From Peptococcaceae bacterium CEB3 (lineage in GTDB: Bacteria > Bacillota > Desulfitobacteriia > Desulfitobacteriales > Desulfitobacteriaceae), in the NCBI GenBank assembly GCA_001029295.1, contig LDXJ01000026.1, forward strand, positions 1 to 32,161: DNA of 32,161 bases, given 5' to 3'. A model generated the notes under the pieces. The model had not been told where the DNA came from and did no database searches. It saw only the letters and a program-made list of their open reading frames with translations. Made by a program: the position numbers and the translations under genes. Of this stretch, positions 3,124 through 25,134 are shown piece after piece. Every line of letters begins with the position of its first letter. The first letter of the stretch is position 1.

Positions 3124-4197
3124 CTAGCTGCTTACTGTTCGTCCTAACCGGTCAACCAGATAGATAGCTTCCACCACCTGTTGATTGTTTATAGCCTGTG
3201 GCATGTTTCCCATATCCTTAGCGGCTACCGCAACTTCCGCAACGCGCTGGATATCATCGTCACTCATGGCCGCAATTTCCGCCAAAGTAGTTGGAACCCC
3301 ACAGCTTTTAGCTAACTTAACTTCCTCTAAAATCTCGGCCTCACCTCGTCTTTCCAGAGCAAGTAAGCAGAGGTTGCCAAACCCCACTAACAAACCATGC
3401 CCAAACGAATGCGCCGCAGGAACATTGGTAAAGCCAAAGTATATCGAATGGGCCGCAGCCCCTCTACATTTTTCGCCCCCAAGAATGGAGGACATACCCG
3501 CGTAAAAAATAATGGCATCAATTACATTCTCCAGCGCTTCATTAACCTTTCCCTCGTCCATGGCCACTTTGGCCCCAGGTCCAAATTTCTTGATGATGTC
3601 ATAACAGATCTTACCATTGTTGATACCACCCAGCGTCCAGCTGGTCGCCGGAATTTTGCTGCCGGTCGCTCGCAGTTCGTACCACTTGGCCAAAGTATCG
3701 CCCATACCAGCGCAAAGCCATCGCTGTGGTGCGCGCAGGATCACTTCAACGTCAACAAACACGGCCGCGGGACAAGCGGAACGTGGTGAGTTTTCGATAT
3801 AGACACCATTTTCGTCATTGATGATGGAGAGGGGAGTAAAAGCGGCACAAGTGGCAGCAATGGTAGGAACAGTAACGCAGGGAATGTGGTTACGGTAGGC
3901 CACTGCTTTTCCGGTATCCAAAGCTCTACCACCGCCAACGGCTATTAATAAACCAGCCTCTGATTTGTGAGCCAACTGGCTAATTCGCTCAATGTTCCGG
4001 TAGGTACATTCGCCACCGTACCATTCAGGCCCAACGATTTTCAGGTTATATCTGTGCAGACTTTCCAGTATAGGTTCTCTTACAGCCTCTAAGGCTTGCT
4101 TACCACCAATTAATAAGACCGTGCTGGCATGGGCTTGACAGAACATCCCTAGGTCCCGCAACACTCCGTCACCGCGTTTGTATACCGACGGAACCAT
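3124..4197 (-). CDS. GldA-like metal-dependent alcohol/polyol dehydrogenase
   Basis: The 357-residue product belongs to the iron-containing alcohol dehydrogenase superfamily, closest in style to glycerol dehydrogenase GldA and hydroxycarboxylate dehydrogenases. The NAD-binding glycine motif is AVGGGRALDTGKA (86-98). Metal ligands are placed at Asp167 (GMGDTLAKWYE), His250 (AAAHSIY) and His267 (SFGHGLL). Their spacing of 83 and 17 residues is the same as Asp171, His254 and His271 of GldA. It should oxidise or reduce a hydroxyl group of a polyol, cyclitol or hydroxy acid with NAD(H). It lies 69 bases after the UroD-type gene at 4267-5328, so cotranscription is likely. The ribosome-binding site GAGGAG is about 12 bases from the ATG, slightly distant. 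The substrate cannot be read from sequence. Confidence 0.88.
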   Translation of the reverse strand: MVPSVYKRGDGVLRDLGMFCQAHASTVLLIGGKQALEAVREPILESLHRYNLKIVGPEWYGGECTYRNIERISQLAHKSEAGLLIAVGGGRALDTGKAVAYRNHIPCVTVPTIAATCAAFTPLSIINDENGVYIENSPRSACPAAVFVDVEVILRAPQRWLCAGMGDTLAKWYELRATGSKIPATSWTLGGINNGKICYDIIKKFGPGAKVAMDEGKVNEALENVIDAIIFYAGMSSILGGEKCRGAAAHSIYFGFTNVPAAHSFGHGLLVGFGNLCLLALERRGEAEILEEVKLAKSCGVPTTLAEIAAMSDDDIQRVAEVAVAAKDMGNMPQAINNQQVVEAIYLVDRLGRTVSS

Positions 4198-4266: not shown

Positions 4267-5328
4267 TCAACTTCGGCTATTTCTGGCTACACGGATCATT
4301 GCCAGCAGGTTTTCCTGGGGTGCGTACATTGGAACCTCACACCCGGAACCCAAAATCAACCCCATGGGACCGGCATTCGAGATCACCTGCGCTGCCGCCT
4401 GCTCCACTTCTTCAACTGTTCCTTGCAACAAAAGCGCAGACGGGTTCAGATTACCCATTAGACAAACACGCTCACCGACCCTTGCCTTAGCCACTTTCAT
4501 GTCGACTTTGTAATCAAGCTCAAGGATTTGAGCCCCGGTATCTGCCATCAGATCCAAAACGGCAGTGTTATTGCCGCAAATGTGCAAGAGCGTCATCGCA
4601 CCCCGTTCTTTAGCCAAGGGACCGATCTCTTTAAAGAAGCGCTTTTCGTAAGGATAAGCAAATTTTTTGTACGTAGCGGGGGATATCACATCCCCTGAAG
4701 CTAACGAATCGCCTGCCTGAACCATCTGCGCACCTGATTCCAAGCATGCCTTGGCAAAGGAAAACAACGCTTCGGTTGTCAAGTCCATTAATTTCAAAAG
4801 GTATTTTTCCGCTTCACCCCCTGGCTCCATAGAGGCTGTGGCCAATTCTATTAAAAACTGGTTGGTTCCCATTAGATGTGAGGCTAAGGATAAGGGGCCG
4901 GTTCCAGGGGCTCTAACCACCACCCGCTCTCCGACTAGTTTTGCCAGACGTTTTATCGCCTCTAAATAGATGGGCATACGCCCGTCTGTGTATGGATTGG
5001 GGACTTTCAAGCGGTCAATATCCTTCAATTCGTTGACAACAGGTGTCTTGAGAGTGGGCGTGCCATTGGGATGATGCTCAACGGTTATGCCAAATCCTTC
5101 CGCAATATAGTAGTTGTCCGATTGAGCTACGACGGCATCTTGTTGATAGAGTTGCCAAGCCCTATACTGAGCTTCTGCCATCAATTCGCCTGATTGGCAA
5201 TACTTGTCAATGGGAACCCCGGCAACCGCCGCCCCGTGGTTGCCCATATAAGGGGCTACCGGAATACAATCAGATTGACCCAGGTCAACCGCACGCCTTA
5301 TTCTCTCCAAGGAAGTCAATGAACTCAT
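4267..5328 (-). CDS. UroD-superfamily corrinoid methyltransferase (MtaA/MtbA/CmuA-like)
   Basis: The 353-residue protein has the uroporphyrinogen decarboxylase fold of cobamide-dependent methyltransferases. A typical zinc site is visible: His249-x-Cys251 in LHICGN and Cys330 in GSGCEVP, as in MtaA and MtbA, where zinc activates a thiol or other acceptor. Sequence blocks RAPGTGPLSLA (139-149), GTNQFLIELA (154-163) and GDVISPATYKKF (212-223) are also characteristic. It is not a haem-pathway HemE, which lacks the H-x-C...C site. It lies downstream of corrinoid protein gene 5630-6259 across a 301-base gap with a structured inverted repeat. It could move methyl between the corrinoid protein and either substrate or acceptor. 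A decayed relative lies at 6372-6652. Confidence 0.9.
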   Translation of the reverse strand: MSSLTSLERIRRAVDLGQSDCIPVAPYMGNHGAAVAGVPIDKYCQSGELMAEAQYRAWQLYQQDAVVAQSDNYYIAEGFGITVEHHPNGTPTLKTPVVNELKDIDRLKVPNPYTDGRMPIYLEAIKRLAKLVGERVVVRAPGTGPLSLASHLMGTNQFLIELATASMEPGGEAEKYLLKLMDLTTEALFSFAKACLESGAQMVQAGDSLASGDVISPATYKKFAYPYEKRFFKEIGPLAKERGAMTLLHICGNNTAVLDLMADTGAQILELDYKVDMKVAKARVGERVCLMGNLNPSALLLQGTVEEVEQAAAQVISNAGPMGLILGSGCEVPMYAPQENLLAMIRVARNSRS

Positions 5329-5629: not shown

Positions 5630-6259
5630 TTAGAAGCTAGAGGACAGCAGTTGATTCGCCTTCTCGACGGCTGTAGCCGCATCAGGGGCATAGGCGTCGG
5701 CCCCAATCTCATCGGCAAATTTCTGCGTCACAGGCGCTCCTCCGATCATCACGCGAACATGATACGATCTCAGCGCTTCTATCGTGGTTCTCATGTTGGT
5801 CATGGTGGTTGTCAAAAGTGCGGAAAGGCCGACAATTTGGGGCTTATACTCTTCGACGGCTTGAGCGAACTTTTCCGGCGATACATCCACTCCTACGTCG
5901 ATAACCTTATACCCCGCGCCTTCCAGCATCATGCGCACCAGGTTTTTGCCAATGTCATGCAGGTCTCCCTTAACTGTGCCGATCAAGACGGTCCCTTTAT
6001 CCTGTACGGCACTGTCGGTCAGGAGCGGTTTGATCACATCCATCCCTGCGTGCATCGCCCGGGCTGCTATGAGCACTTCGGGTACATAGACTTCGTTGTT
6101 CTTAAACCTAACCCCAACCACATTCATCCCCGCAATTAAGCCGTCATTAATAATGGTTTGCGGTGCAAGCCCCTCGGTTAAAGCCTTTTCCGCAAACTCT
6201 CTGACTTCTTTAGCGTTTCCGTTGATAACGGCCTCAGCCATTTCATGTAATGTTGACAT
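5630..6259 (-). CDS. Methyltransferase-type corrinoid protein, copy 2
   Basis: The start is set at the ATG at 6259, where AAGGAGAGG lies just upstream. A longer frame to 6325 has no such site. The 209-residue product has the helical cap, then IGTVKGDLHDIGKN with the cobalt ligand His101, SALLTTT, GGAP and the ending ADAYAPDAATAVEKANQLL. It is nearly superimposable on the 1663-2289 product. Neighbours are a dead UroD gene upstream and an intact UroD methyltransferase downstream, so it is the natural methyl carrier for that enzyme. A small hairpin (CCGAC-GGTAA-GTCGG followed by TTTT on the minus strand, about 6296-6316) lies in its leader and might be an attenuator, but this is weak. Confidence 0.93.
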   Translation of the reverse strand: MSTLHEMAEAVINGNAKEVREFAEKALTEGLAPQTIINDGLIAGMNVVGVRFKNNEVYVPEVLIAARAMHAGMDVIKPLLTDSAVQDKGTVLIGTVKGDLHDIGKNLVRMMLEGAGYKVIDVGVDVSPEKFAQAVEEYKPQIVGLSALLTTTMTNMRTTIEALRSYHVRVMIGGAPVTQKFADEIGADAYAPDAATAVEKANQLLSSSF

Positions 6260-6371
6260 ATCGGTTACCTCTCCTTCTCTTATAGATAGCATGCAAAACC
6301 GACTTACCGTCGGGGTGGAGAGCAAGTATGCAAAAAAGTCGTTGCGTAGTGTTGTTTAGGTTGCGGCTCTA

Positions 6372-6685: not shown

Positions 6686-7759
6686 CTACTTTGTGTGAAT
6701 GTATTCCGACAGTTCTCTCGCCCGTTCGGCAGTCGGTACACTAATGTTGAGAAATATCCCTGAAGACGGGAGACCCTCCATGATACAATCGATATCTTCT
6801 TCATCAAGATCGCCAAAAATTATTAGGTTTTTCTTCACCAAGATTTTCCTAAACTGCAGCAACATTTCTTTGGTAGCAGGACCCCCTATGTCTTTGTTCA
6901 CCTGAATGGCCTTTATGTTCCCTACTTGCATTAACGAGTCGAGAATAAAGAAGGATGCCGGATGCAGGTGAGCGACCGTATAGTCGTAGCTTTCGCCATA
7001 TCGTGTATCAGGTTCCAATAAATGCTCGTCATACATTTTCGGCGAAAGCAAAGCAGATAAATCTTCCTGAAACCAGAGGCACCGCCTTGGACACCAAATG
7101 TGATAAAAGCCTAAAGAATATCCATTGTAAAAATCGGGGGTTGCATCAAATTGGGATTCAATCACGTGCCTAAAGATAGCGACAGCTTTGGAAAAAGCGT
7201 CGCGCATGATCCCTGGCTCTTCCACGAGTCCGTATACCAATTCGGTTTGCCCCATCAAGGCTCCCACCACATCGGAAGCCCCCCTTAAAATAGGCTGCCC
7301 GACCGGGAATCTTCCCAATGAAGCCCTATTAAGTTTCTCAACAAACTCAAGATACTTTTTAAACCACGAATTGTCTTCTTTAAACCGTACAGTCTGCAGG
7401 TCTCGGGCTGACTTCACATACGGTATTGAAATGAAACTACTCTGCGTCCCGTATATTTCACATCCTAGCATTCCTTCTAACCACGGGATCCCATTTAACG
7501 GCTCGGCCACCCAGAAACCGTCCTGACCACTTGAACAGGCTTCCTCATACATCCGCTCGAAATCTTCCATATACGCATCCACATCGATCATCTCGGGCAT
7601 AATTTTTTTGCCATCTGTGAGAAGATGCCGTGAAGCATTATACCGACGACTGACAAAATAGTCGCCTATTTGGAAGGATACTAATGGTCTCTTCAAGGGT
7701 TCCCGGTTCCAATATGCCTTGTGAAGCTCAATCTTCCGTCTTATGATTTCTTCGCCCAT
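6686..7759 (-). CDS. Divergent UroD-superfamily protein lacking the H-x-C zinc motif
   Basis: The 357-residue protein aligns in layout with UroD-like methyltransferases of Clostridia: an N-terminal segment ending RPLVSFQIGDYF, a middle GASDVVGALMGQTEL that matches the RAPG...L-x-G-T region, and a C-terminal barrel with KAIQVNKDIGGP. The usual H-x-C-G site is replaced by His264-Leu-His266-Pro (AHLHPASFF), and no late cysteine follows, so metal binding or chemistry should differ. The segment 218-240 is rich in aromatic and cysteine residues (FYHIWCPRRCLWFQED). It may be the substrate-specific methyltransferase of the pathway rather than the acceptor one; that is inference. The ribosome-binding site is weak. 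It follows the gene at 8013-9065 after 253 bases in which I see no gene. Confidence 0.75.
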   Translation of the reverse strand: MGEEIIRRKIELHKAYWNREPLKRPLVSFQIGDYFVSRRYNASRHLLTDGKKIMPEMIDVDAYMEDFERMYEEACSSGQDGFWVAEPLNGIPWLEGMLGCEIYGTQSSFISIPYVKSARDLQTVRFKEDNSWFKKYLEFVEKLNRASLGRFPVGQPILRGASDVVGALMGQTELVYGLVEEPGIMRDAFSKAVAIFRHVIESQFDATPDFYNGYSLGFYHIWCPRRCLWFQEDLSALLSPKMYDEHLLEPDTRYGESYDYTVAHLHPASFFILDSLMQVGNIKAIQVNKDIGGPATKEMLLQFRKILVKKNLIIFGDLDEEDIDCIMEGLPSSGIFLNISVPTAERARELSEYIHTK

Positions 7760-8012
7760 GTCGGCTCGCCCCCACGTTCACTCGTATTCATAACACTTTT
7801 ACTTCTAAACACGGACTAACTTTGGTGCTACGGCGTGATTTGCCGACATCTTTTTGTTCAGGCCTTTTCACTTGGCCCTCATGGATGATTCATCTTGGAA
7901 ATGGTGATACCACACTCCGGTGCCGGTGTTACTACTATCGGTACGTTTCCCAAAGCCCCTACCTGAGATTTACTAAATCAAAAGAGCGATTACGCAGCCA
8001 TACCCTAGTCGG

Positions 8013-9065
8013 TCACAGTTTTCCAGCTTTATAATCTTCTACCGCCCTGATTAACGCGTCAATATTGGCCATCGGGACTTCAGAACTAATTTGGATTGAC
8101 GGGGCAATTATATAACCTCCGTAGGCACCTAACGTTTCAACGCAATGTTTGACTTCTTGGCGTACATCCTCTGGGTTACCAAACGGCAGGGTTACCTGGG
8201 TCGATATTCCGCCGTAAAAAGCCAACTTTCTTCCATAGCGACCGGCCAGCTCTTCTATAGGCATGGCTTGCGGCTGAACAGGGTGCAGGATATCTAGTCC
8301 CATTTCGACTAGATCATCCAATATTAGGCGGACATCGCCACATGAATGATGAATTACCGGGAGTCCGGCTTCTTTATATACGGCCCAGATACGGGCCAAA
8401 CGGGGCTTTATCATCTTTCGCCAGAGCGTGGGAGACATAAGTAGGTTGCGTTGTCCACCGTAATCGTCGCCAGTGCGGCCACAGTTTACTCCCACCTCCA
8501 CATTCCGTTTAGCGATTTCCACTTGATAGTCGGTAATCTTGTCCAGAAGTTCTTCCGCGAAATCCTGGTTTAGAAGCATATCTGTCAAGAAGTTCTCAAA
8601 CCCCCTGAGAGCCCAAGCCCGTTCGAAAAGACAGGTAACCTGGTAAGACGGTACTAAATACTCATTGGCATATTTGGTTACTGTTTCGCGAGCAAAATCC
8701 ATCATCTCGGGTGAAAATGGATCGGGCAAATGATAATCGTGGTACCGACTTAGATCTGCAAGGGGATGATACGCAATAAAGGTGCCTTCTTGCTGGGTAT
8801 CCCAACCTACACCCCACTCATCGAACAGAACCTTCTCTGTCTTTGCAAACATCCGTTTGCGAATTTTGCCAAAAGGATCATTGAGGTACGCGTATACCAA
8901 ATGGTTATCTAGTCGATCGATTAGATATTCCTCATTGTCTGGTATGCCCCAGGCTTCAGTAACTTTGTCCAGAGCGGTGGGTGTAAATTCGATTTGGACA
9001 GGAAAATAATCAACTTGCTCATGCATAATAGCCAGCAGAATGCGTTCTTTGTGTGATAGCCCCAT
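8013..9065 (-). CDS. UroD-superfamily protein with HHSCG motif
   Basis: This 350-residue protein starts MGLSHKERILLAIMHEQVDY, the standard N-terminus of clostridial UroD-like proteins (K-E-R-x-L-x-A-x-x-x-E-x-x-D). GDDYGGQRNLLMSP (199-212) and IHHSCGDVRLIL (238-249) with His240-x-Cys242 are present. The late region reads APSIQISSEVP without the third cysteine ligand, unlike the MtaA-like enzymes at 4267-5328 and 18047-19057. The family contains candidate methyltransferases acting on methylated compounds, but biochemistry is sparse. GGGAGG lies nine bases before the ATG. It follows the MFS transporter after a 377-base gap, so it may start a separate unit. Confidence 0.82.
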   Translation of the reverse strand: MGLSHKERILLAIMHEQVDYFPVQIEFTPTALDKVTEAWGIPDNEEYLIDRLDNHLVYAYLNDPFGKIRKRMFAKTEKVLFDEWGVGWDTQQEGTFIAYHPLADLSRYHDYHLPDPFSPEMMDFARETVTKYANEYLVPSYQVTCLFERAWALRGFENFLTDMLLNQDFAEELLDKITDYQVEIAKRNVEVGVNCGRTGDDYGGQRNLLMSPTLWRKMIKPRLARIWAVYKEAGLPVIHHSCGDVRLILDDLVEMGLDILHPVQPQAMPIEELAGRYGRKLAFYGGISTQVTLPFGNPEDVRQEVKHCVETLGAYGGYIIAPSIQISSEVPMANIDALIRAVEDYKAGKL

Positions 9066-9442: not shown

Positions 9443-10711
9443 CTACGAATTCTTTCTTATCGTATCTTCTTTAATAACGAAAATACTGACAAAAACAATT
9501 GCACTGGAAACTACCATATAGGCAGCAACCGACCAAGGAGAACCATGTGAGATGTGCAAAAGCAAAGTAGCGATAAAGGGTGCACTTCCACCGACAATAG
9601 CATTAGCAAATTCCCTACCTATCACGACACCACTGTAACGCGACTCCACCGGAAACAACAGGGGTAAAAGAACACTAGAGGGTCCCCACATGACATAGGC
9701 TGCCCCGAGTCCAATGGTCATCGCCAGAATGACGATAAACGGATTGCCAGTATTAAGCAATGCAAACATCGGAAACGCAAATAACCCTGATAACACGGCT
9801 CCCACGAGGGATACTGCCTTCAAGCCTTTTTTGTCTGCAACAACGCCGGAAATTATTAAGACAAATATCCCTATAAACGCCGCAATAAGGAGAGCGTACG
9901 AGCTGAATGCTTTAGCGAACTTCAATGTGGACACTAAATATGACAGAACAAATGCCTGAATAATATATGTGTGTACACCCTGAAATTGAAGTAGCGCCGT
10001 AATAATTAACTCCTTTGGATGCTTTGAAAACACTTGTCTGATGGGGTTAACCTTAGTCTTCTCCTTCTTTTCCAAGAACTGTTGTGTTTCATGTAGCCCT
10101 GCTCGTAGATACAACCCCACTGCTGCTGTAACAATGCTTAACAGAAATGGTATGCGCCACCCCCAGTCGAGGAATGCTCCTTGCGGCATCATCGATAGTA
10201 AACCAAATATACCGGAATATAACATAATCGAGATGGGAATTGAAACCGAGGGAAAGCTACCGAAAAATCCTCTTCGCTCTTTTGAACTTTCTACGATAAA
10301 CACCAAGGCCCCTGCATATTCTGCCCCTGCGCCGAATCCCTGTACAAGCCTTAAGACGATCAGCAGAACGGGGGCCCAAAAACCAATAGTCCTATATGTC
10401 GGCAGAAGACCAATTAAAGTTGTTCCCAGACCCATAATGATTATAGTTGCCATTAGGGCCGTTTTACGACCTATTCTGTCACCAACATAGCCAAAAAGCA
10501 TTCCACCAAACGGCCTCGCAAAAAAACCTACTCCAAACGTTGCAAAAGCAAGCAAAGTTCCGACCCACGGGCTACTATTCGGAAAGAAAAGTTTGTTGAA
10601 TACAAGTGCCGCGGCCATCCCATAAACACCGAAGTCGTACCACTCAAGAACAGTACCAATTGTGCTGGCTACAACAACTTTCCTGATGGAGTTTCCTCCG
10701 TTTGGACTCAT
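9443..10711 (-). CDS. MFS transporter, metabolite:H+ symporter (MHS) type
   Basis: The 422-residue membrane protein has about 12 hydrophobic segments. It opens with VVVASTIGTVLEWYDFGVYG, the N-terminal signature of the metabolite:H+ symporter subfamily (ProP, KgtP, ShiA relatives), and has the loop motif GYVGDRIGRKTALM between TM2 and TM3. RLVQGFGAGAEYAGA matches the conserved TM4-5 region. Members import organic acids, betaines or osmolytes with protons, so it probably brings a charged substrate, for instance a sugar acid, into the cell. The start follows a GGGGGG-rich site, and the gene begins 36 bases after the UroD-type gene at 10748-11896, which implies cotranscription and a shared substrate. 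The exact substrate is not readable. Confidence 0.9.
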   Translation of the reverse strand: MSPNGGNSIRKVVVASTIGTVLEWYDFGVYGMAAALVFNKLFFPNSSPWVGTLLAFATFGVGFFARPFGGMLFGYVGDRIGRKTALMATIIIMGLGTTLIGLLPTYRTIGFWAPVLLIVLRLVQGFGAGAEYAGALVFIVESSKERRGFFGSFPSVSIPISIMLYSGIFGLLSMMPQGAFLDWGWRIPFLLSIVTAAVGLYLRAGLHETQQFLEKKEKTKVNPIRQVFSKHPKELIITALLQFQGVHTYIIQAFVLSYLVSTLKFAKAFSSYALLIAAFIGIFVLIISGVVADKKGLKAVSLVGAVLSGLFAFPMFALLNTGNPFIVILAMTIGLGAAYVMWGPSSVLLPLLFPVESRYSGVVIGREFANAIVGGSAPFIATLLLHISHGSPWSVAAYMVVSSAIVFVSIFVIKEDTIRKNS

Positions 10712-10747: not shown

Positions 10748-11896
10748 TCACCTCAAATTACTTTCGCCCCATTCCTTGACCGCTTGCTCAAGAACAAGCC
10801 AATTGCTGTCATTAGCTTCATAAATTTGACCACAACCACGCAGTACGTAACCTCCATCGTGACCGGCACTATCTAAGCATCGCCACACCTCTTTTCGGAC
10901 ATCGTCTGGATTGGTACTTACCAGTACCCGTTCATTAAATCCCCCCCATAATCCCACCTGTTTACCAACCCTCTTTTTCGCGTATGCAAGATCAACGTCA
11001 CCAGCAACCTCGGGTACAGCAAGAGTTTCTATGGCGGTTGTACCTGTATCCGCCATTAACTCCAAGAGCCTATTACTTTTTCCGCATACATGAAACGAAC
11101 TTATTAATCCCGGGTTAACAATTTGCTGGATAACCTGTTTATCATAAGGATAAATATATTCTTTATACAGTTCTGGGGAAATACCGATACCGACCGAAGA
11201 CTCGTTGAGTTGAATACAGTCGACGCCCGACGACACCAATGCAGAAACGGTTGTCAGTGTATATGCAGTTAGTGCGGTAAAAAAGTCGTTGACCCATTGG
11301 GGCTGATCATATATTGCCATAATCATTTCTTGAGTTCCGCAAATTGAACAGGCTTCCTGAAATACTCCCGGAACTGTAACAAACACGAACGCCCGGTTTC
11401 CCACTGTTTGGCACATTTTTGTTATCGCGGTTACGTCGCACTTTACCGGATCGGGTCGGTATTCTAGCATTTCTAAAGATTGCCCTGTTTTAAAAGGGTG
11501 ATTCATAGCCCATTTCTGGTATTTTTCCTGTCGGTAATCAAACCTCATGGTTCCTGCGGGAGTCGCAATCGTTCTCGATACCTGCTTTCCGTTTTCGTTT
11601 GCATTAAGTTTTTCCGTTATATTCCAGGTCTTTGTATCTTGCCACTTCATGATTGCCGAAGGCCAAGTGACGACATCTGGTTCCTGAAAGCTATACAAAT
11701 TAATAACCGGATCGTGCCCTAAGCTTTCTTGGAATGATATGATGGTGTCCAACGGGTTCTCCAAATAGGAATTTATAACACTTCCATGTAAGTTCAGCTT
11801 TTTTACCAGATAATTTAAGTTAAATATATTTACAATTGGAACTCTATCTACCGGTTGTCGTAGCAACGTTCTTGTAATTATCTGTTTTGCTTGCAT
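10748..11896 (-). CDS. UroD-superfamily methyltransferase with H-x-C...C site
   Basis: The start is placed at the ATG at 11896, which has GAGGAG five bases upstream, giving 382 residues; an in-frame ATG at 11932 lacks a site. The protein starts MQAKQIITRTLLRQPVDRVP and carries His269-x-Cys271 in FHVCGKSNRLLELMADTG and Cys355 in LRGCGQIYE, consistent with a zinc site of the MtaA/MtbA kind. GISPELYKEYIYPYDKQ matches the central SPxxYxxF region of the other cluster members. It lies between 6-phosphogluconate dehydrogenase and the MHS transporter in one probable transcript. The leader 11897-12009 is purine-rich on the coding strand and holds an inverted repeat, CGTACT (11966-11971) with AGTACG (11990-11995). 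Confidence 0.86.
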   Translation of the reverse strand: MQAKQIITRTLLRQPVDRVPIVNIFNLNYLVKKLNLHGSVINSYLENPLDTIISFQESLGHDPVINLYSFQEPDVVTWPSAIMKWQDTKTWNITEKLNANENGKQVSRTIATPAGTMRFDYRQEKYQKWAMNHPFKTGQSLEMLEYRPDPVKCDVTAITKMCQTVGNRAFVFVTVPGVFQEACSICGTQEMIMAIYDQPQWVNDFFTALTAYTLTTVSALVSSGVDCIQLNESSVGIGISPELYKEYIYPYDKQVIQQIVNPGLISSFHVCGKSNRLLELMADTGTTAIETLAVPEVAGDVDLAYAKKRVGKQVGLWGGFNERVLVSTNPDDVRKEVWRCLDSAGHDGGYVLRGCGQIYEANDSNWLVLEQAVKEWGESNLR

Positions 11897-12009
11897 ATTG
11901 TCTCCTCCTCGCTCATTAGCAGGTCGTCGCATTGTCGCAATTTCTTGGGTGCTGTCCTCCTCCTTCGTACTACTTCAATTTGCCTATCAAGTACGTCCTC
12001 CCCTCCTCG

Positions 12010-12909
12010 CTAATTGTTTTTTTCGACAGGGTGGCCGCCGAACCCGTTTCTTAAAGCCGCAATGACTTTCCCGGCAAACGTATCTTCCTCCAAGGAGCGA
12101 TAGCGCATAAAGAGAGACAAGGCAATAACGGGCGTTGGCACCCCTAAGTCAAGCGCGGTTTCCACCGTCCATTTCCCCTCTCCCGATGAATACATGATCC
12201 CCTTGATACTTTTCAGCTCTTTATCCTTACTAAAGGCCTCCTGAGCCAATTGCATAAGCCAACCGCGGATAACGGAGCCATGATTCCACACACTTGCCAG
12301 CTTGTCATAATCGAAATTAAAATCTGATTTTGAGATAACTTCGAAGCCTTCAGCTAGGGCCTGCATCATTCCGTACTCGATCCCGTTGTGGACCATTTTC
12401 GCGAAATGCCCGCTGCCTGGCTCTCCTGTGTAGAGAGAACCGCCTTCGACTGAGATGCCTTTAAAAATCTCTGCGCAGTAAGCATAAACTTCCTTTTCCC
12501 CGCCGATCATGGTGCAGGCACCGGACAGGGCGCCTTCGATTCCGCCGCTTGTCCCGCAATCCAAGAAATCAATTTCTTTTTCCTTTAGGAGTTTGTACCT
12601 CCGTACGGAATCCCTGAAATTCGAATTACCGCCATCGATGATGATGTCACGGGGTTCAAGCGCGGGCAGCAATTCATTGATTACCTCGTCGATTGTGTCA
12701 CCCGCCGGTATCATCAGCCAGATGACTCGCCTTTTGCTGAGTTTGCGCGCTAGGTCCCCGATAGAGTCGGCTTTAGCGGCACCCTGCTCAGCAATCGCTT
12801 CAACCTTATTCTCGTCAGAATCAAAGGCGGTGACATCATGATGGCGTCTCATTAGATTCAAACACAAGTTATAACCCATCTTCCCGAGTCCGATAATTCC
12901 GATTTCCAA
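12010..12909 (-). CDS. gnd: 6-phosphogluconate dehydrogenase, decarboxylating, short form
   Basis: The 299-residue product is the short 6PGDH found in Firmicutes (YqeC/GntZ-like rather than the 470-residue form). It has the nucleotide-binding GLGKMG (7-12), the substrate region CGTSGGIEGALSGACTMIGG (118-137) and the catalytic helix HFAKMVHNGIEYGMMQ with Lys171, Asn175 and Glu178. It converts 6-phosphogluconate to ribulose 5-phosphate plus CO2 with reduction of NAD(P)+. The start is TTG at 12909 with AGGAGG seven bases upstream. It follows gluconokinase by 143 bases, forming the classical gluconate utilisation pair, and precedes a UroD-type methyltransferase and an MHS transporter in the same direction. 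Confidence 0.93.
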   Translation of the reverse strand: MEIGIIGLGKMGYNLCLNLMRRHHDVTAFDSDENKVEAIAEQGAAKADSIGDLARKLSKRRVIWLMIPAGDTIDEVINELLPALEPRDIIIDGGNSNFRDSVRRYKLLKEKEIDFLDCGTSGGIEGALSGACTMIGGEKEVYAYCAEIFKGISVEGGSLYTGEPGSGHFAKMVHNGIEYGMMQALAEGFEVISKSDFNFDYDKLASVWNHGSVIRGWLMQLAQEAFSKDKELKSIKGIMYSSGEGKWTVETALDLGVPTPVIALSLFMRYRSLEEDTFAGKVIAALRNGFGGHPVEKNN

Positions 12910-13052: not shown

Positions 13053-14558
13053 TTACTGATATTTCGTGAATTCATCCCTTAGCTTTCCGTAAATGCGTTC
13101 AAAAATGGCAAAGTTTCTTTGGTAGATTTCATTTCGCACCCTGTCAGGCTCAAAAACCTGCGTGAACGAAAGCAATTTGTCAACATCCTCTAAGTCTTCA
13201 ATAACTCCCAAGGCGTTCATGCCCATAACCGCCGCGCCGAAACAAGAACTTTCGTAACTCTCGGCTAGACGCACTCTCGTATTAAACATGTCCGCCAACA
13301 TCTGTACCCAAAACTCCGAGCGGGCAAATCCTCCCGAGGCCGTAATCAGCTGGATTTTTCCCGTGACTTCTTCCAACGCCTGCCCGATGCTGTAAAGTCC
13401 GAAAGTCACTCCCTCCAGCACTGCCCGCAGAAAATGCTGCCGTGTATGCGCCATGTTAATTCCGAAGAAGACCGCTTTGGCATTGGCGTCCCAATGAGGA
13501 GCCCGTTCACCCAGCAGGTAAGGCAGAAAGATTAAACCATCCGAGCCGGGCACGATCTTTTGCGCCTCGGCCGTCAAAAGATCGTAGGGATCAACGCCAC
13601 TCTCACCGGCCGAGTTCAACTCGGCTTGAGCAAATGTATCCCTAAACCACCTAAGGGCTATGCCGCCGTTGTTAACCGAGCCTCCCAGTACGTAACGACC
13701 TTTTGTCAGAACGTAGCTGAACAATCTTTCCTTTTCATCATCGGCCGGCTTGTTGGCCACAACCCGAATCGCCCCACTCGTGCCAATCGTTACCGCCGCG
13801 TAGCCAGGCCTAATGGCATCCGCTCCCAGATTCGCCAGACAACCGTCGCTGGCTCCGACAATAAACGGGGTATTTTCGGGAATGGCCATATACTCGGCGT
13901 ATTCTTTTCTTATACCGGTTAACATATGAGTCGCCGGCACCGGTAGAGAAAGCCTGTCGGCGTCGATCCCCAAGTAAGCTAAAGCTTCGCCGTCCCAAGT
14001 TAGTTGGGACAGATCAAAAAGTCCGGTTGCGGAAGCGATAGAGTAATCGACAATATATTGACCAAACATCTTCAACAGTATGAACTCTTTTATACCGATA
14101 AACCTATAAGCCTTATGGAAAATATCTTTCTCATGTTCCTTTATCCACGCCAATTTACAAAGCGGTGACATAGGGTGAATGGGCGTCCCTGTTTTGAGAT
14201 AGATTCGGTGCCCTACTTGGCTGTTTTTTAGGGTATCGGCATACTCTTTGCTGCGCGTATCGGCCCAGATGATCGAATGGGTCATCGCTGTGCCCGTGCG
14301 GTCTACGGCAATGACGCTATGCATAGCCGAACTGAAAGCAATACCTAGAAGGTCGTCCTCGTCCCTTTGCCCCGCCACAGCTTTAACGGAGTTCAAAACC
14401 GCAGCGAAAACAGTTTCAGGGTCTTGTTCATAATGAGAAGGAAAAGGGTTCTCAATGGGGTATTCGATGCTTTTCTGCCGTAAAGGTCGTCCGTCCAGGC
14501 CGAAAGCGATTGCTTTCGTGCTCGTCGTTCCTACGTCTACACCTACAAGGTACTCCAA
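13053..14558 (-). CDS. gntK: Gluconokinase, FGGY family
   Basis: The 501-residue protein has the FGGY sugar-kinase architecture. The N-terminal phosphate loop is YLVGVDVGTTSTKAIAF (3-19), followed by YPIENPFPSHYEQDPETVF typical of gluconokinases, AVTIGTSGAIR in the ATP-binding half, and ITASGGFARSEFWVQMLADM near the C-terminus. It phosphorylates gluconate to 6-phosphogluconate, the substrate of the next gene. The start codon is TTG with GGAGG six bases upstream. A clear sigma-A promoter lies about 85-112 bases before the start. Because of the setting, a modified gluconate or another aldonate remaining after demethylation could be the actual substrate. Xylulokinase or glycerol kinase are the alternatives within FGGY, but gnd as neighbour favours gluconate. 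Confidence 0.9.
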   Translation of the reverse strand: MEYLVGVDVGTTSTKAIAFGLDGRPLRQKSIEYPIENPFPSHYEQDPETVFAAVLNSVKAVAGQRDEDDLLGIAFSSAMHSVIAVDRTGTAMTHSIIWADTRSKEYADTLKNSQVGHRIYLKTGTPIHPMSPLCKLAWIKEHEKDIFHKAYRFIGIKEFILLKMFGQYIVDYSIASATGLFDLSQLTWDGEALAYLGIDADRLSLPVPATHMLTGIRKEYAEYMAIPENTPFIVGASDGCLANLGADAIRPGYAAVTIGTSGAIRVVANKPADDEKERLFSYVLTKGRYVLGGSVNNGGIALRWFRDTFAQAELNSAGESGVDPYDLLTAEAQKIVPGSDGLIFLPYLLGERAPHWDANAKAVFFGINMAHTRQHFLRAVLEGVTFGLYSIGQALEEVTGKIQLITASGGFARSEFWVQMLADMFNTRVRLAESYESSCFGAAVMGMNALGVIEDLEDVDKLLSFTQVFEPDRVRNEIYQRNFAIFERIYGKLRDEFTKYQ

Positions 14559-14763: not shown

Positions 14764-15696
14764 TTAAAACCGCTTGGTCGCGATACCCTCTCGTATCTTA
14801 CCCAATGTTGCAAGAGTCTCCTCTTTTCGCTGCAGAGCCACACCCGCATAAAGGCAGTCGATGAGCATAAGAGCGCTTAACCGGGACTCCATAGCTTCGC
14901 TGCGAAACATGGATTCTTGTCCGAATGAAACCAAAACCAGATCGGACACCTTCGTCAGGGGGGAGCGGGGGTTCCCAGTGATGGCGATGATTTTTGCTTC
15001 ATTCTTCCTCGCTAAACCGATCGCTTCCACGAGATCTTTATTGCTTCCGGAATTGGAGATGGCCATGACCACGTCATTCTTCTTTGCCATCGCGGCAAAC
15101 ATCGCCTGCAAATGCGAATCCGTATGAACGGAGCACTCAATCCCCGTACGAATAAACTTGTGGTAGGCGTCAAAAGCAATGGCACCTGAGCCTCCCATGC
15201 CAAAAAACAAGATTTGACGCGCCTTGAGCATGAACTTAACCGCCTCCGCGAGGGTTTTAGCTTCATTGACGTCGAGGGTTTTTTTCATACTATACTGGTT
15301 GGAAGTGAAAACCTTATTCATAATAATGTACATGTCGTCATTTTCTTTTATCTCTTCATGAATGTTTTGAATGGGTTCGATCAGCGTGCCGGCTAAGCTG
15401 ATTTTCAGTTCCTGATATCCCCGGTAACCCAGCTTGTTGCATAGGCGAAAGATGGTCGTTTCACTCACTGAACTGTTTTCCGCCACTTCCGTGATAGAGT
15501 AATGGATTATATCGCCGGGATTTTCCAAAATGTATTGAGCCGCTTTCCTCTCGGCGGTGTTCAGCCTGCTGTAAATATCTCTTATTCTCTGCAGACAGTC
15601 AGTTGGTTGTTTCTCCTCCACCAGTCCCACCCCAGTCCCCCGGATTGCCCGGAAATTCACCCTAAGTCCTATCCCACCGCTTATCTGCCGGCTCAT
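14764..15696 (-). CDS. RpiR-family transcriptional regulator (HTH + SIS domain)
   Basis: The product contains an N-terminal HTH_6 domain (RIRDIYSRLNTAERKAAQYI through SVSETTIFRLCNKLGYRGYQ) and a C-terminal SIS phosphosugar-binding domain (ILFFGMGGSGAIAFDAYHKF, then AISNSGSNKDLVEAIGLA). RpiR proteins sense sugar phosphates, so 6-phosphogluconate is a plausible ligand given the downstream gntK-gnd. The longest frame starts at ATG 15696 (310 residues) without a clear ribosome-binding site. In-frame GTG codons at 15630 and 15621 lie closer to the conserved domain and are alternative starts. It has its own promoter and terminator and is therefore a monocistronic regulator between the xyl-type operon and the gluconate operon. 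Confidence 0.9.
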   Translation of the reverse strand: MSRQISGGIGLRVNFRAIRGTGVGLVEEKQPTDCLQRIRDIYSRLNTAERKAAQYILENPGDIIHYSITEVAENSSVSETTIFRLCNKLGYRGYQELKISLAGTLIEPIQNIHEEIKENDDMYIIMNKVFTSNQYSMKKTLDVNEAKTLAEAVKFMLKARQILFFGMGGSGAIAFDAYHKFIRTGIECSVHTDSHLQAMFAAMAKKNDVVMAISNSGSNKDLVEAIGLARKNEAKIIAITGNPRSPLTKVSDLVLVSFGQESMFRSEAMESRLSALMLIDCLYAGVALQRKEETLATLGKIREGIATKRF

Positions 15697-16004: not shown

Positions 16005-16634
16005 TTACGAAGCATACTGGGCGAACACGTGCACCGCTGTTCCCGCGTCCGGCGCGTAACCGTCCGCGCCGATCTCCGCGGCGTATCTTTCAGACACAGG
16101 AGCGCCGCCCACCAGCACTTTGACCTGGGAACGCAATCCCTCTTGCTCCAACAAGCCGAGCACCGTCCTCATCGAACCCATCGTTGTGGTCAAGAGGGCG
16201 GAGAGCCCGATAGCCGTAGGCTTATGCTCTTTCACCGCCTCGACAAACTTTTCCGGCGCGACGTCGACTCCCAAGTCAACCACATCCCAGCCCGCCCCTT
16301 GCAGCATCGTTCCCAAGAGGTTTTTCCCGATGTCATGAAGATCTCCCTTCACGGTCCCGATAACCACTTTACCCAGGTACTTCCGTCCCGCTTGCAGGAT
16401 CAGCGGTTCAAGAACTTTGAGGCCGGCTTTCATCGCCCGGGCGGCTATCAACATTTCCGGCACGAATATCTGGCCGTCTCGGAATCTTTCCCCTACCACA
16501 TTCATGGCACTGACCAATATTCCTTGTATGATGTCGTCAACCGCGAGTCCGGCCGCAAGCATCTCTTCCACGCCCCGTGCTGTCCCAGCAGCGTCTCCTT
16601 TAATGATCAAATCTTTGATTTCGTCAGCTTGCAC
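16005..16634 (-). CDS. Methyltransferase-type corrinoid protein, copy 3 (divergent)
   Basis: The 209-residue protein has the same cap plus B12 domain as copies 1 and 2, with GTVKGDLHDIGKN (cobalt ligand His100), SALLTTT, GGAP and the ending EIGADGYAPDAGTAVHVFAQ. It differs in many positions from the other two, so it is an older paralogue. The start is GTG at 16634 with only a weak GGCGGA site upstream. It ends the xylFGH / UroD / Gfo-Idh run 130 bases after the dehydrogenase, and a terminator follows, so a sugar importer and a methyl-carrying corrinoid protein seem to be in one operon. Two copies of TTTTAAGATTTTT (16656-16668 and 16676-16688) lie just upstream of the start. Confidence 0.92.
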   Translation of the reverse strand: MQADEIKDLIIKGDAAGTARGVEEMLAAGLAVDDIIQGILVSAMNVVGERFRDGQIFVPEMLIAARAMKAGLKVLEPLILQAGRKYLGKVVIGTVKGDLHDIGKNLLGTMLQGAGWDVVDLGVDVAPEKFVEAVKEHKPTAIGLSALLTTTMGSMRTVLGLLEQEGLRSQVKVLVGGAPVSERYAAEIGADGYAPDAGTAVHVFAQYAS

Positions 16635-16655
16635 GTCAAATCATCCGCCTTTGCC

Positions 16656-16688
16656 TTTTAAGATTTTTCTTCGCGTTTTAAGATTTTT
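16656..16688. repeat. Two 13-bp direct repeats upstream of corrinoid copy 3
   Basis: TTTTAAGATTTTT occurs at 16656-16668 and again at 16676-16688, 20 bases apart (about two helical turns), 22 bases before the corrinoid start. It may be a regulator site or simply AT-rich mRNA that exposes the weak ribosome-binding site. Confidence 0.4.
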
Positions 16689-16764
16689 GCCGTCCCTGGA
16701 TCAGCATTATGTCAGAACTTTGTAGCATCATGCATTTGACCATAAGAGCAGTGAACTACCCCAC

Positions 16765-17841
16765 TCACGCCTTGCTTTCCTCTATACGCTCCACGGCCTT
16801 AACCGTGCGCTTCTCTGAGTTGCTGAGTTCGGCCAGTTCGATGATCCTCATCGTCCGCCAAGCCTCCTCAGGCTTCACGGCCAGATCGGAGCCCCTGGCG
16901 ATAGCGTCGGCAACGTTTTCATAAAAAGCCTGATAACATCCCGGCAGGGTCTCAAGGAGACCCACAACATGCATGTGGTCAATCTCGGCCTCGATCGTTC
17001 CCCACTGTGCCCTTGGCTCGATGCCCCAGGCATTATCAGGCGCCGGGTTTTGCCCCGCGCGCAAGAGATCCTCCTGTCGATCGAAACCGCCTTTAAGAAA
17101 TGAGCCAAGCCGCCCCCGCAGCACAAAGCGCGGACCCGGCTGCCGCACCATCATACCCGCCTTCAAAGCAGCCTTGAGTTTGGGATAACCTAAGACGACC
17201 TCGAAGCTGTCAACTGCCCTACCCCCTTCCCGTTGAACCCGCAGGTCAGCGGTCACTGTATCGGGCCAGCCAAACAAGACCAGAGCTTGATCGATTAGGT
17301 GGGAACCCAAGTCAAAGAGGATGCCCGAACCGGCTTCTCCCGATTCACGCCAGGCTCCCTCATTCACCTCTGGGCGGAAGCGGTCATAGTGGGCCTCGTA
17401 CTCCACAATCTCCCCCAGCATGCCGCTCTTAACCAGTTCCCGAATCGTCCGGAAGTCCCCGTCCCAACGCCGGTTTTGGTAAACGCTCAGTACTCTTTGC
17501 CGTTCTTGGGCCAGCTCAATCAAGGAGCGGGCTTCCGCCGCCGTCAGAGTAAACGGCTTGTCGACGACGACATGCTTACCGGCCAACAGGGCCTGACGGG
17601 CCAATTCAAAATGACTGGAATTGGGGGTAGCCACCACCACCAGATCGACCTTGGCATCCTCCAGGAGCCGGTCGCTCTCCCTCAAAACCAAGGCTTGCGG
17701 AAAATCTCGGCCGGCCCGGTCACCGTGCCGCTCCACGATAGCATACAAATTCAGGGAAGACACCGCATTGATCAGAGGAGCATGAAATACCCGCCCGGCA
17801 AAGCCATAGCCCAGTAACCCCACGTTGATTTTATCTGTCAT
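16765..17841 (-). CDS. Gfo/Idh/MocA-family dehydrogenase, IolW (scyllo-inositol dehydrogenase)-like
   Basis: The 358-residue protein has an N-terminal Rossmann motif (GLLGYGFAGRVFHAPL, 8-23), VVVDKPFTLTAAEA with Lys95 in the D/E-K-P signature, SVYQNRRWDGDF and GILFDLGSHLIDQ, which supplies the catalytic Asp/His pair. Length and the motifs S-V-Y-x-N-R-R-W-D and F-x-x-Y-x-R-x-R-P-E-V match Bacillus IolW (YvaA), an NADP(H)-dependent scyllo-inositol dehydrogenase, better than glucose-fructose oxidoreductase. It should oxidise a ring hydroxyl of a cyclitol or pyranose to a ketone. It lies between a UroD-type methyltransferase and a corrinoid protein in the sugar-import operon, with AAGGAG seven to eight bases before the ATG. 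Confidence 0.88.
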   Translation of the reverse strand: MTDKINVGLLGYGFAGRVFHAPLINAVSSLNLYAIVERHGDRAGRDFPQALVLRESDRLLEDAKVDLVVVATPNSSHFELARQALLAGKHVVVDKPFTLTAAEARSLIELAQERQRVLSVYQNRRWDGDFRTIRELVKSGMLGEIVEYEAHYDRFRPEVNEGAWRESGEAGSGILFDLGSHLIDQALVLFGWPDTVTADLRVQREGGRAVDSFEVVLGYPKLKAALKAGMMVRQPGPRFVLRGRLGSFLKGGFDRQEDLLRAGQNPAPDNAWGIEPRAQWGTIEAEIDHMHVVGLLETLPGCYQAFYENVADAIARGSDLAVKPEEAWRTMRIIELAELSNSEKRTVKAVERIEESKA

Positions 17842-17927
17842 TTTATCGTCTCCTTCTTATCATCTCCGTCTAATCCTCTTCGTCTTATCCTGTCGTTCTC
17901 TTTGCGGAGGACCTCCTTCCTCACCAT
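17838..17927 (-). CDS. Possible 29-aa basic leader peptide overlapping the dehydrogenase start
   Basis: An ATG at 17927 preceded by AAAGGAAG opens a 29-codon frame reading MVRKEVLRKENDRIRRRGLD then GDDKKETIK. It stops with TGA at 17838-17840, overlapping the ATG of the dehydrogenase (ATGA arrangement). The coding strand of this 200-base gap is unusually purine-rich, so the open frame could be chance. If translated, it would couple translation into the dehydrogenase gene. Confidence 0.3.
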   Translation of the reverse strand: MVRKEVLRKENDRIRRRGLDGDDKKETIK

Positions 17928-18046
17928 TGCGCTTCCTTTCTGTTTCTATTTCCTCATTCCGCTTGACTTTTATTCTTCTCCCAAATTTACTACATTTCAA
18001 GCCCCGATTTAACACCGGGTAAATGTCCCACGCGTGTCAGCCCGGA

Positions 18047-19057
18047 TCAATAGCGCGGATAATCGCGTAAAGCCTCGGCGATGGCTTTCAGATTCTCATG
18101 CGGAGTCGAGAGGGGAATCTCGCAGCCCGCCATGATTAGGGTATTGGCGTCCCCCGCGTCCAAACACTTCCAGACCGCCTCCCTGATAAGGGCCGGCGTT
18201 CCCTGCTGCACCACGGCCACGGGGTCGAAATTGCCGCAGGCAGCCGCATAGCCCCGGTAAGTTTCACAGGCCAGCTTGAAATCCACTTTCCAGTCCACAT
18301 CAATGATATCCGCCCCGCTCAATTTCATCAAGTTCAAGATAGCCGTCGTGTTCCCGCAGATGTGGAGTCTGGCCAACGCCCCCGCCTCATGCACGGCGGC
18401 CACCAGGCGCTGCTCATAAGGCTGAGCAAAGACTCCGAAAAGGTCCGGGCCGAGCAAGGAGGCAGCGGCATCCCCCATTCCTATGAGATCCGCACCGGCT
18501 TTAATTTGAGCTACGGCTGAACGGATTTCCGCCTCCAAACATATTTCCAGTAGCTGGTGGACCTGATCCGGACTGTCGTAGACATCCAGCATGATCTCAT
18601 TCATCCCGCGCAGGTCGACTGCCTCGGCAAAAGGCGCTTCCACCCAGCCCATGATCGGGTATTCGTCTCCTGCCTCCCGTTTGTATAACTCGATTCCTTT
18701 GATGCGGTCTCGCATGCGGGTCGAGCGGTAAGGGTCAAAGATCTGCAGTTTTGGCAGATCGTCGTAGCTCTTTAAAAGATTATCCGAACAGAGAGGAATA
18801 TCATCCTCCGGAAACTCGACCTTACCCCCGAAATCGAAAACTTCGCGAAACGGATCGGAAATAGCCCCGAGGATATCCAGGTCGAAATCTTTAGCTACCC
18901 GCAGGTTGGACTCCACTAGAACCTCGTAGTCCAAGTAGAACTGGGATTGCGGCTTGCCAATATAAAGCGGGGCAAACGCCATAATGAGATTACAGTTCGG
19001 AGCCCTGTCCACCGCCTTACCTGCCAGTCGTCTTATCAATCTTTCTTTGGAATTCAT
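18047..19057 (-). CDS. UroD-superfamily corrinoid methyltransferase in the sugar operon
   Basis: The start is set at ATG 19057 (MNSKERLIRRLAGKAVDRAP), six bases after GGAGGAG; a GTG at 19072 overlaps that site. The 336-residue product has the zinc site His232-x-Cys234 in RLHICGNTTAIL and Cys312 in MAGCEIPLSTPHEN, and SLLGPDLFGVFAQPYEQRL matches the central SPxxYxxFxxPYE block. It resembles the 4267-5328 enzyme in motif spacing, so these two are the likeliest MtaA/MtbA-like partners of the corrinoid proteins. It begins 36 bases after xylH and precedes the IolW-like dehydrogenase, tying methyl transfer to sugar import. Confidence 0.9.
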   Translation of the reverse strand: MNSKERLIRRLAGKAVDRAPNCNLIMAFAPLYIGKPQSQFYLDYEVLVESNLRVAKDFDLDILGAISDPFREVFDFGGKVEFPEDDIPLCSDNLLKSYDDLPKLQIFDPYRSTRMRDRIKGIELYKREAGDEYPIMGWVEAPFAEAVDLRGMNEIMLDVYDSPDQVHQLLEICLEAEIRSAVAQIKAGADLIGMGDAAASLLGPDLFGVFAQPYEQRLVAAVHEAGALARLHICGNTTAILNLMKLSGADIIDVDWKVDFKLACETYRGYAAACGNFDPVAVVQQGTPALIREAVWKCLDAGDANTLIMAGCEIPLSTPHENLKAIAEALRDYPRY

Positions 19058-19093
19058 CTGTTTCTCCTCCACCCTTCCTTGACCACTTCGAGT

Positions 19094-20323
19094 TTAGGTT
19101 GCGCGCTTGCGGCTGGCAATGTCAACCCAGACCGCAAACAAGAGAATCAATCCCTTGGCCATATACTGTAAAGAAGCATCCGCATTCATCAGACTTAAAC
19201 CATTATCGATACTGGCCATAACCAAAGCCCCGATGATGGCGCCGTAGACACTCCCTTCCCCTCCCATCGTACTAGCACCGCCGATAATGGCGGCGGCGAT
19301 GGCGTCCAGTTCAAACAGGTTTCCCGCGGAAGCACCGGCGGCGTTTAGGCGGGCTGTAAATATGATGCCTGAAACCGCTGTCAAAGCGCCCATAATAATG
19401 AATAGGATCATCGTCGTCCGCCGGATGTTGATCCCGGAGAAGCGCGCAGCTTCTTTGTTGCCGCCGATAGCGTAAATATGACGGCCGAAAACGGTTTTCT
19501 CGGCCATAAAGTTAAACAACACGGTTAAAGCCATGAGGATCAAAACCGCATAAGGGATCCCCATGTAGTCCGTCATAATGCCAAACACGAAGGCTATCAC
19601 TAAAGAGGTGGCCGCAAGACGCAGCACGAACAATTTCTTATCTGGAACTTCAAACCCATACTTCACTCTGCTTTTTCGCAGCCGGATTTGCCAAAAAACG
19701 TAAAGGCCAATCACCACCAGACCCAGCAAGGCACTCGAATCATTGATCGGTGCAGTGCTGATGAGCTTGGGCAAATATCCCTGACCGATTTCCTTGAAAG
19801 AATGGTTCATCGGGCTAATCGTCGCTCCACCTGTAACCTTAATAACCATACCCCGGAATACCATCATTCCAGCCAAAGTGACGATGAAGGCCGACACTCC
19901 CCGGTAAGCGATCCAGTACCCCTGCCAGATACCGACCAGAATGCCGGCAAGCAAGGTGATGATGATCACCGGAACGGTGCCCATGTTCAGGTTGACCTGC
20001 AGATACGCCGCAATTGCTCCCATCAATCCCACCAGGGAGCCCACCGACAAATCAATGTGTCCGGCCACGATGACCAAGACCATGCCCACCGCCAAAACAG
20101 CGACGCTGACTGACTGCAGAAACAGGTTTGACAGGTTGCGCGGCTCAATAAACATGCCATTGGTTAAATACGTAAACACCAGCCAGATGCCCACCAACAA
20201 TATAACCATGGTGTATTCGCGCATGTTGGCGCGCAAAGATTGCAGCACGGCCGTCAGAAAGGGATCCCCCGCCGTGTTGCGCCCGTTTTCGCGCTGGGCC
20301 CCCGTCTCTTTTCCTTTATCCAC
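19094..20323 (-). CDS. xylH: Sugar ABC transporter permease, XylH type
   Basis: The 409-residue integral membrane protein has roughly ten hydrophobic segments starting after a polar N-terminus of about 35 residues. VLAVGMVLVIVAGHIDLSVG (the AGHIDLS motif of XylH/RbsC permeases), SAFIVTLAGMMVFRG and NKEAARFSGINIRR (the coupling EAA-like loop) identify it as the permease of a monosaccharide importer. The start is GTG at 20323, which overlaps the end of the ATPase gene by eight bases and has AGGAGG eight bases upstream, a translationally coupled pair. It forms the channel of the XylFGH-type transporter. Confidence 0.9.
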   Translation of the reverse strand: MDKGKETGAQRENGRNTAGDPFLTAVLQSLRANMREYTMVILLVGIWLVFTYLTNGMFIEPRNLSNLFLQSVSVAVLAVGMVLVIVAGHIDLSVGSLVGLMGAIAAYLQVNLNMGTVPVIIITLLAGILVGIWQGYWIAYRGVSAFIVTLAGMMVFRGMVIKVTGGATISPMNHSFKEIGQGYLPKLISTAPINDSSALLGLVVIGLYVFWQIRLRKSRVKYGFEVPDKKLFVLRLAATSLVIAFVFGIMTDYMGIPYAVLILMALTVLFNFMAEKTVFGRHIYAIGGNKEAARFSGINIRRTTMILFIIMGALTAVSGIIFTARLNAAGASAGNLFELDAIAAAIIGGASTMGGEGSVYGAIIGALVMASIDNGLSLMNADASLQYMAKGLILLFAVWVDIASRKRAT

Positions 20324-21854: not shown

Positions 21855-21949
21855 CGTTTCACCTCCCGTTCAGAAGGGGAAGAGGAACAGACCATCCGCC
21901 ATCCCCCTTCCCTTGCCGGAACTTTTCCTGTCCGTCACTCAGAGAACTT

Positions 21950-23112: not shown

Positions 23113-23130
23113 TCGTCCACCAAAAAACAG

Positions 23131-25112: not shown

Positions 25113-25134
25113 ATAAAGAAATAAGAGAAATAAG

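Follow-up and report, generated by a model that had tools for sequence, protein, structure and literature searches.

Known enzymes of the UroD superfamily are largely alkyl transferases; its S-methyltransferases bind zinc by a His-Cys-Cys set, and in its O-methyltransferases one or both of the Cys are replaced by carboxylates or non-ligands (PMC10418091, in the text available to us). In the accessible portion of PMC13222342, zinc is present in some O-demethylases (veratrole, vanillate) and absent from the Moorella one, and CdmB, a corrinoid chloromethane methyltransferase of UroD fold, is without zinc. The available part of PMC539065 places the ligands of MetE at the ends of barrel strands, with His618 ending strand 5 and Cys620 next, Glu642 ending strand 6 and Cys704 after strand 8, and describes HemE as not a metalloenzyme. 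A literature search, mostly by title, found no UroD protein with an assigned role in sugar catabolism or in the demethylation of methylated sugars. We know of no UroD-fold sugar isomerase or epimerase.

The stretch of DNA analysed here (the window: 32,161 nt of Peptococcaceae bacterium CEB3, assembly GCA_001029295.1, contig LDXJ01000026.1, positions 1-32,161) carries at 6686-9065 two neighbouring genes whose products, to judge from sequence, are relatives of methyl-transfer enzymes with metal-site residues changed to a different conserved set. Both genes (6686-7759 and 8013-9065, hereafter 6686 and 8013) lie on the minus strand, and the coordinates and ORFs of a preliminary description are correct. 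The altered sites of both proteins are conserved, not decayed, and, since the closer relatives of the pair lie mostly amid genes for the uptake or breakdown of sugars or sugar acids, the two proteins may catalyse a sugar chemistry not yet described; residues, predicted fold and gene context together suggest a metal and an oxygen substrate.

Protein 6686 (357 aa; HxHP family) has a candidate metal site formed by H264, H266, D290 and perhaps residue 338, and the HLHP noticed earlier in place of H-x-C-G is indeed found, at residues 264-267. Among 66 aligned homologues from many phyla, H264 is kept in all and H266 in 65/66, its one replacement (by Cys) being in the partial sequence L089, and position 290 is acidic in 65/66 (Asp 58, Glu 7); W93, E95, D163, Q231 and D233 are each present in 66/66 and R159 in 64/66. 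More variation is seen at position 338 of the last strand (Gln 23, His 19, Asn 11 of the 66; His 17 and Asn 9 in the 30 nearest relatives). As H264, H266 and D/E290 are near-invariant (65-66 of 66), the site is a conserved alternative, and chance or decay was rejected for it. The preliminary description had also seen a Cys-rich stretch earlier in the protein, which comes down to C223 and C227; neither is conserved (Cys in 13/66 and 11/66 homologues), and the two residues were rejected as substitute ligands.

The assignment of 6686 to the UroD proteins holds by its predicted fold and by remote profile matches of its relatives, 29/52 of which give a PF01208 hit with an E-value of 1 or below (best 1.4e-7); a Pfam match of its own is absent. 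The protein has no Pfam or NCBIfam match at 1e-3, TIGR01463, NF040654 and NF041608 included, does not reach the PF01208 cut-off of 23.9 and has no match to that model even at E up to 1, and neither 6686 nor its 52-sequence profile retrieved anything relevant by sequence among solved structures. A search of the phylum sample found family matches in 26/398 genomes, most of them remote and seven at E below 1e-80. Scanning the contigs of named genomes with the alignment profile gave 65 HxHP loci; the alignment was needed, as a scan with 6686 alone found zero relatives. Hosts include Moorella stamsii, Spirochaetales, Desulfobacterales, Treponema, Planctomycetota, Verrucomicrobia, Lentisphaerae and others. 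The paralogue in the same genome (G000:C33:30227-31279, 46% identity) keeps H-x-H-P, as do all of six further relatives at 39-47%.

Protein 8013 (350 aa) matches PF01208 with 105.6 bits, over the cut-off of 23.9, and falls far short of the NCBIfam MtaA/MtbA cut-offs (80.8 bits for TIGR01463, cut-off 235.4; 77 for NF040654, 400; 51 for NF041608, 600) as well as that of HemE (TIGR01464, 302.95; 24.2 bits for 8013, no match for 6686). Its HHSCG spans residues 239-243 and supplies H240-S-C242-G; Q264 stands at the position of the MetE Glu, and SIQ, with no Cys, follows the last strand. The earlier observation that HHSCG is kept with no third cysteine ligand is upheld: the remaining Cys are 145, 195 and 308, and since C308 lies, in the model, inside helix 298-312 and outside the loop that follows strand 318-322, and that loop has no Cys (APSIQI, against GSGCE and MAGCE in the MtaA-like proteins of the window), no Cys occurs after the last barrel strand. 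An alignment of 8013 relatives (29 rows, 27 after two wrong ORFs were left out) keeps H240 in 27/27, and the C242 position is occupied by Cys in 19 of these rows and by Asp in the other 8, counted by eye.

Structure prediction, proposed in the preliminary description as a check, returned for 6686 a single TIM barrel of UroD type (AlphaFold2 on 52 family sequences; pLDDT 97, pTM 0.93). Its best match by Foldseek and VIA-align is the UroD structure 6w2o (Z 22.5, rmsd 3.3 over 307), tied with MtaA (4ay7; Z 22.1, rmsd 3.2, 303 aligned), and MetE follows at Z about 15. The model of 8013 (pLDDT 84) is likewise a single UroD-type TIM barrel (best Z 25.7, rmsd 3.0 over 303; 4ay7 Z 25.5). UroD, MtaA and MetE head the realignments of 1000 chains, and no sugar isomerase is prominent in the best 50 of the 1000. 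When the profile of 6686 is compared with UroD proteins (E 6e-14), its H264 falls on H240 of 8013 and its H266 on C242; in the 6686 model strand 260-265 contains H264 and is followed by H266, and D290 comes after strand 282-289, and in the 8013 model H240 is the end of strand 237-240 and Q264 follows strand 259-263. The 6686 site thus modelled would share the topology of MetE with His in place of Cys, and we infer that 6686 binds a metal through H264, H266, D290 and perhaps residue 338. A standard zinc site rebuilt from other residues, which the preliminary description had named as evidence against its own proposal, accordingly appears in part, being predicted for 6686 only and as His-His-Asp/Glu.

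The pair and the neighbours listed here are all on the minus strand. In transcription order, a gluconokinase-like FGGY kinase (13053-14558; 606.1 bits, under the cut-off of 648.55), an NAD-dependent decarboxylating phosphogluconate dehydrogenase (12010-12909; TIGR00872, 403.5 bits, cut-off 297.2), a PF01208 protein whose HVCG and a further Cys downstream make up His-Cys-Cys (10748-11932), and an MFS transporter (9443-10711) precede 8013 and 6686; then come, directly after 6686, a standalone corrinoid protein (5630-6325), an MtaA-like UroD with His-Cys-Cys (4267-5328; H249, C251, C330), an iron-containing, glycerol-dehydrogenase-like alcohol dehydrogenase (3124-4197) and a second standalone corrinoid protein (1663-2289). 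A third one is found at 16005-16634, so that corrinoid proteins near the pair are those at 1663, 5630 and 16005. The regulator at 14764-15696, presumably of RpiR type, is 54% identical to the regulators of two related sugar islands. The order UroD, 6686, corrinoid protein, MtaA-like protein suits a methyl-transfer set. Elsewhere, the window holds a second set at 16005-24228, with an MtaA-like gene (18047), a corrinoid protein and what we take to be a sugar-type ABC transporter, a Gfo/Idh dehydrogenase and a LacI-type regulator; repeated ORF fragments occur at 25093-25756 and 27091-28333, where an arginine-rich stretch recurs along with pieces that resemble the ABC permease (28041-29984), and the end of 25109-25756 presumably resembles a fragment of a dehydratase activator. 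Scanned with Rfam, the window and five loci yielded two tRNAs alone, both in related loci.

The paralogous locus of the same genome (G000:C33:14000-43207; L126, L127) contains a galactonate dehydratase (688.7 bits, cut-off 311), a tartronate-semialdehyde reductase (487.2, cut-off 397), a keto-deoxy-gluconate-type kinase and a KDPG-type aldolase, and a relative of the MFS transporter (41% identical) lies beside its UroD pair. The corrinoid protein (1663), 4267 and the dehydrogenase are 92%, 98% and 99% identical between the two loci, with an in-frame stop in the second copy of 4267, and the HxHP proteins are 46% and the 350-aa UroDs 56% identical; just upstream of the second HxHP gene lies a short remnant of a broken corrinoid gene. 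By these sequence identities, a recently copied module adjoins two old, divergent pairs.

The usual neighbours of HxHP genes are genes for GntR, TRAP, transketolase halves, SDR, enolase-superfamily dehydratase and HpcH aldolase. At the nearer loci (27 named loci, L061-L089 with a picked ORF), a sugar/acid-sugar transporter cluster lies within 6 kb in 19/27 and an enzyme cluster in 20/27, with one or more such clusters in 24/27 and two or more in 17/27; the counts for the remote loci (34 named, L090-L125) are 7/34 and 15/34, at least one in 20/34, two or more in 7/34 and neither in 14/34, and because of these last 14 the argument from sugar context applies mainly to the nearer half. A UroD-like gene lies within 6 kb in 19/70 HxHP loci, window and paralogous locus included (HMM E 1e-4, some matches weak), which indicates that the pairing recurs. 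The nearest homologue of 8013 (83%, genome G212) belongs to an island with a regulator, a gluconokinase-like gene, a UroD fragment, TRAP genes and a phosphogluconate dehydrogenase-like gene, with no corrinoid gene; the fragment (245 aa, L165:6631-7368) lies between the kinase and TRAP genes. An island with the same flanks in G098 runs from a regulator through HxHP, GntR, TRAP, Zn-dehydrogenase, transketolase, tartronate-semialdehyde reductase and kinase genes to a 4267-like and a phosphogluconate dehydrogenase-like gene, again with no corrinoid gene. The remaining eight 8013-like loci have genes resembling ABC-transporter parts close by and no corrinoid gene. Several HxHP clusters (L064:4979-6289; L213/L215, about 51-52 kb of contigs) also encode lactate-racemase-type (Lar_N) proteins, possibly candidate nickel-pincer acid-sugar epimerases; in G047 and G086 they are accompanied by genes that we take to be LarB- and LarC-like.

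Homologues of the MtaA-like protein 4267 at 49-58% occur in 7/50 HxHP genomes. Around four of these genes, in TRAP or Gfo/Idh contexts, no corrinoid gene was found (one of the stretches is 3 kb). In three genomes the 4267-like genes, at a distance of about 10-13 kb, escaped a view limited to 10-kb flanks. In Spirochaetes (L224, L225, L226), 4267-like genes belong to TRAP sets that hold two UroD-type genes, SDR and Gfo/Idh genes and, within the stretch, no corrinoid gene. Two of the three sets have a Zn-dehydrogenase.

A corrinoid gene accompanies 2/65 named HxHP loci (L084, L125), or 4/70 once the window and the paralogous locus are counted (31 of the 70 have 5 kb on both sides), and none of the nine 8013-like loci (0/9). 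This local absence is weak evidence, because a control UroD that is corrinoid-linked here has a corrinoid gene within 5 kb in only 5/19 relatives (five stretches short on one side). At the genome level, a corrinoid match at 1e-40 is present in 26/26 HxHP and 21/21 8013-like genomes of the phylum sample, against 295/398 overall and 12/17 control genomes with tartronate-semialdehyde reductase, five of which also hold HxHP; these matches may include MetH-type proteins, the counts ignore relatedness, and the 26 HxHP holders include remote matches along with seven strong ones. Among the 50 named HxHP genomes, all but three (G399, G424, G433) reach E 1e-40 or better with a corrinoid match, which makes 47 (these genome-level counts were made by hand), and TIGR02370 is matched at 1e-3 in 49 and its cut-off passed in seven. 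G424 has a TIGR02370 match in a 1240-aa frame and a weak one of 228 aa; G399 has none and G433 one, in a 1294-aa frame, so that in these last two genomes, whose assemblies may be incomplete, HxHP is present and a standalone corrinoid protein was not found. The genome-level co-occurrence favours corrinoid involvement and, with the result for the control UroD, makes the use of corrinoid proteins encoded elsewhere possible.

Demethylation and a corrinoid-free sugar step are thus two close models, the second slightly favoured. Our tentative first choice is that the pair are corrinoid-independent UroD-fold enzymes of sugar or acid-sugar catabolism, with a metal site rebuilt for an oxygen substrate. 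The metal of 6686 and R159 would hold an aldonate, uronate or keto-aldonate by a hydroxyl or keto oxygen and the carboxylate, and E95, D163 or D233 would provide acid-base catalysis for an isomerisation, an epimerisation or a comparable reaction, whose product would feed transketolase, tartronate-semialdehyde reductase, gluconokinase or keto-deoxy-gluconate enzymes; 8013 would act on a related sugar ahead of gluconokinase and phosphogluconate dehydrogenase. Neither would generally need a corrinoid protein, and a genome rich in methyl-group genes would have put the pair beside corrinoid modules. This model draws on the sugar sets around the nearer loci, the rarity of corrinoid genes in cis, the corrinoid-free islands of G098 and G212, the sugar-acid enzymes of the paralogous locus, the corrinoid-free Spirochaete sets with 4267-like genes, and G399 and G433; against it stand the lack of any UroD-fold sugar isomerase or epimerase known to us, the remote loci with neither kind of sugar cluster, the genome-level corrinoid enrichment and the corrinoid genes in cis at the window, the paralogous locus, L084 and L125.

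A serious competitor, held with similar reserve, is that both are substrate-side O-demethylases of O-methylated sugars or sugar acids, served by a corrinoid protein that is encoded in cis in this window but in trans at other loci. The metal would activate the ether oxygen, the methyl group would pass to Co(I) of a corrinoid protein (here 5630 or 1663) and be passed on by 4267 with its His-Cys-Cys site, and the freed acid sugar would enter the gluconokinase/phosphogluconate or galactonate routes. The preliminary description had proposed action on an ether or a different chemistry. Its ether idea fits the residue pattern, because O-type sites of this superfamily of mostly alkyl transferases swap Cys for carboxylates or non-ligands (PMC10418091, available text), and fits the corrinoid neighbours found here, but relatives mostly have no corrinoid gene nearby. 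The gene order of the window speaks for demethylation, as does a genome (41 PF01208 matches, 34 corrinoid-protein stretches over 60 bits) in which 32/41 UroD matches have a corrinoid protein within 5 kb; so do the close 4267 homologues (58-61%), found in 3 other genomes of 199 searched and all in an HxHP cluster, the near-identical module beside two divergent pairs, as expected of a shared acceptor module, the genome-level co-occurrence, and downstream sugar routes that vary between loci. Most loci of relatives, however, including the two islands with matching flanks, have no corrinoid gene, nor have the Spirochaete 4267-like genes one nearby. Known O-demethylase systems, moreover, mostly come with a corrinoid gene of their own, which also weighs against this reading.

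A role for the HxHP barrel in sensing or regulation, and not as an enzyme, is unlikely. GntR and HxHP are fused in a single frame of 604-609 aa in six loci (L065, L069, L072, L075, L076, L083; Desulfobacterota- and Syntrophaceae-type assemblies), and a GntR gene abuts the HxHP gene in three more among 69 unfused ORFs, but HxHP copies are mostly separate genes, and nine polar or aromatic residues, both site His included, do not vary across 52 sequences that span many phyla. Least probable is that the sites are decayed, metal-free remnants of MtaA-type thiol methyltransferase zinc sites: 8013 does have Gln and Ile where MetE has Glu and the last Cys, and CdmB works without zinc (PMC13222342, accessible portion), but the conservation of H264, H266 and D/E290 (65-66 of 66 sequences) and of H240 (27/27) speaks against decay.

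UroD-like genes are abundant in anaerobes, as the matches in this genome illustrate, and their default annotation tends to be decarboxylase or methyltransferase. There is some chance, short of even, that a widespread UroD branch with its own His-His-Asp/Glu metal site performs, in anaerobes across many phyla, a sugar-acid chemistry that needs no corrinoid protein; such a branch would correct this default and might supply a missing pathway step. To our knowledge, it would be the first UroD-fold enzyme whose reaction is neither an alkyl transfer nor the decarboxylation of a porphyrinogen. If the pair instead demethylates methylated sugar acids, it would link the methyl sugars of plant polymers to acetogenesis.

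Among known systems, HemE shares the fold, with Z scores (22.5 against 6686, 25.7 against 8013) that tie with those of MtaA, and differs as a non-metalloenzyme whose sequence model scores far under its cut-off. MtaA/MtbA (4ay7) match both proteins in UroD fold from end to end (Z 22.1 and 25.5), with His ending the matching strand, and differ in that their His-Cys-Cys corresponds to His-His-Asp/Glu in 6686 and to His-Cys without the last Cys in 8013. The O-demethylases of the superfamily and CdmB (acetogen MT-I), set side by side with the pair by description, resemble it in superfamily, in the loss of Cys ligands and in the corrinoid gene that adjoins it here, whereas the loci of its relatives mostly have none. 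MetE has Cys620 where 6686 has His, a Cys after the last strand where 6686 has none and offers only the variable position 338, and two barrels against one (Z about 15), yet its C-terminal barrel presents the same arrangement as 6686: a strand-end His, a second ligand two positions further along and, where the following strand ends, an acidic residue.
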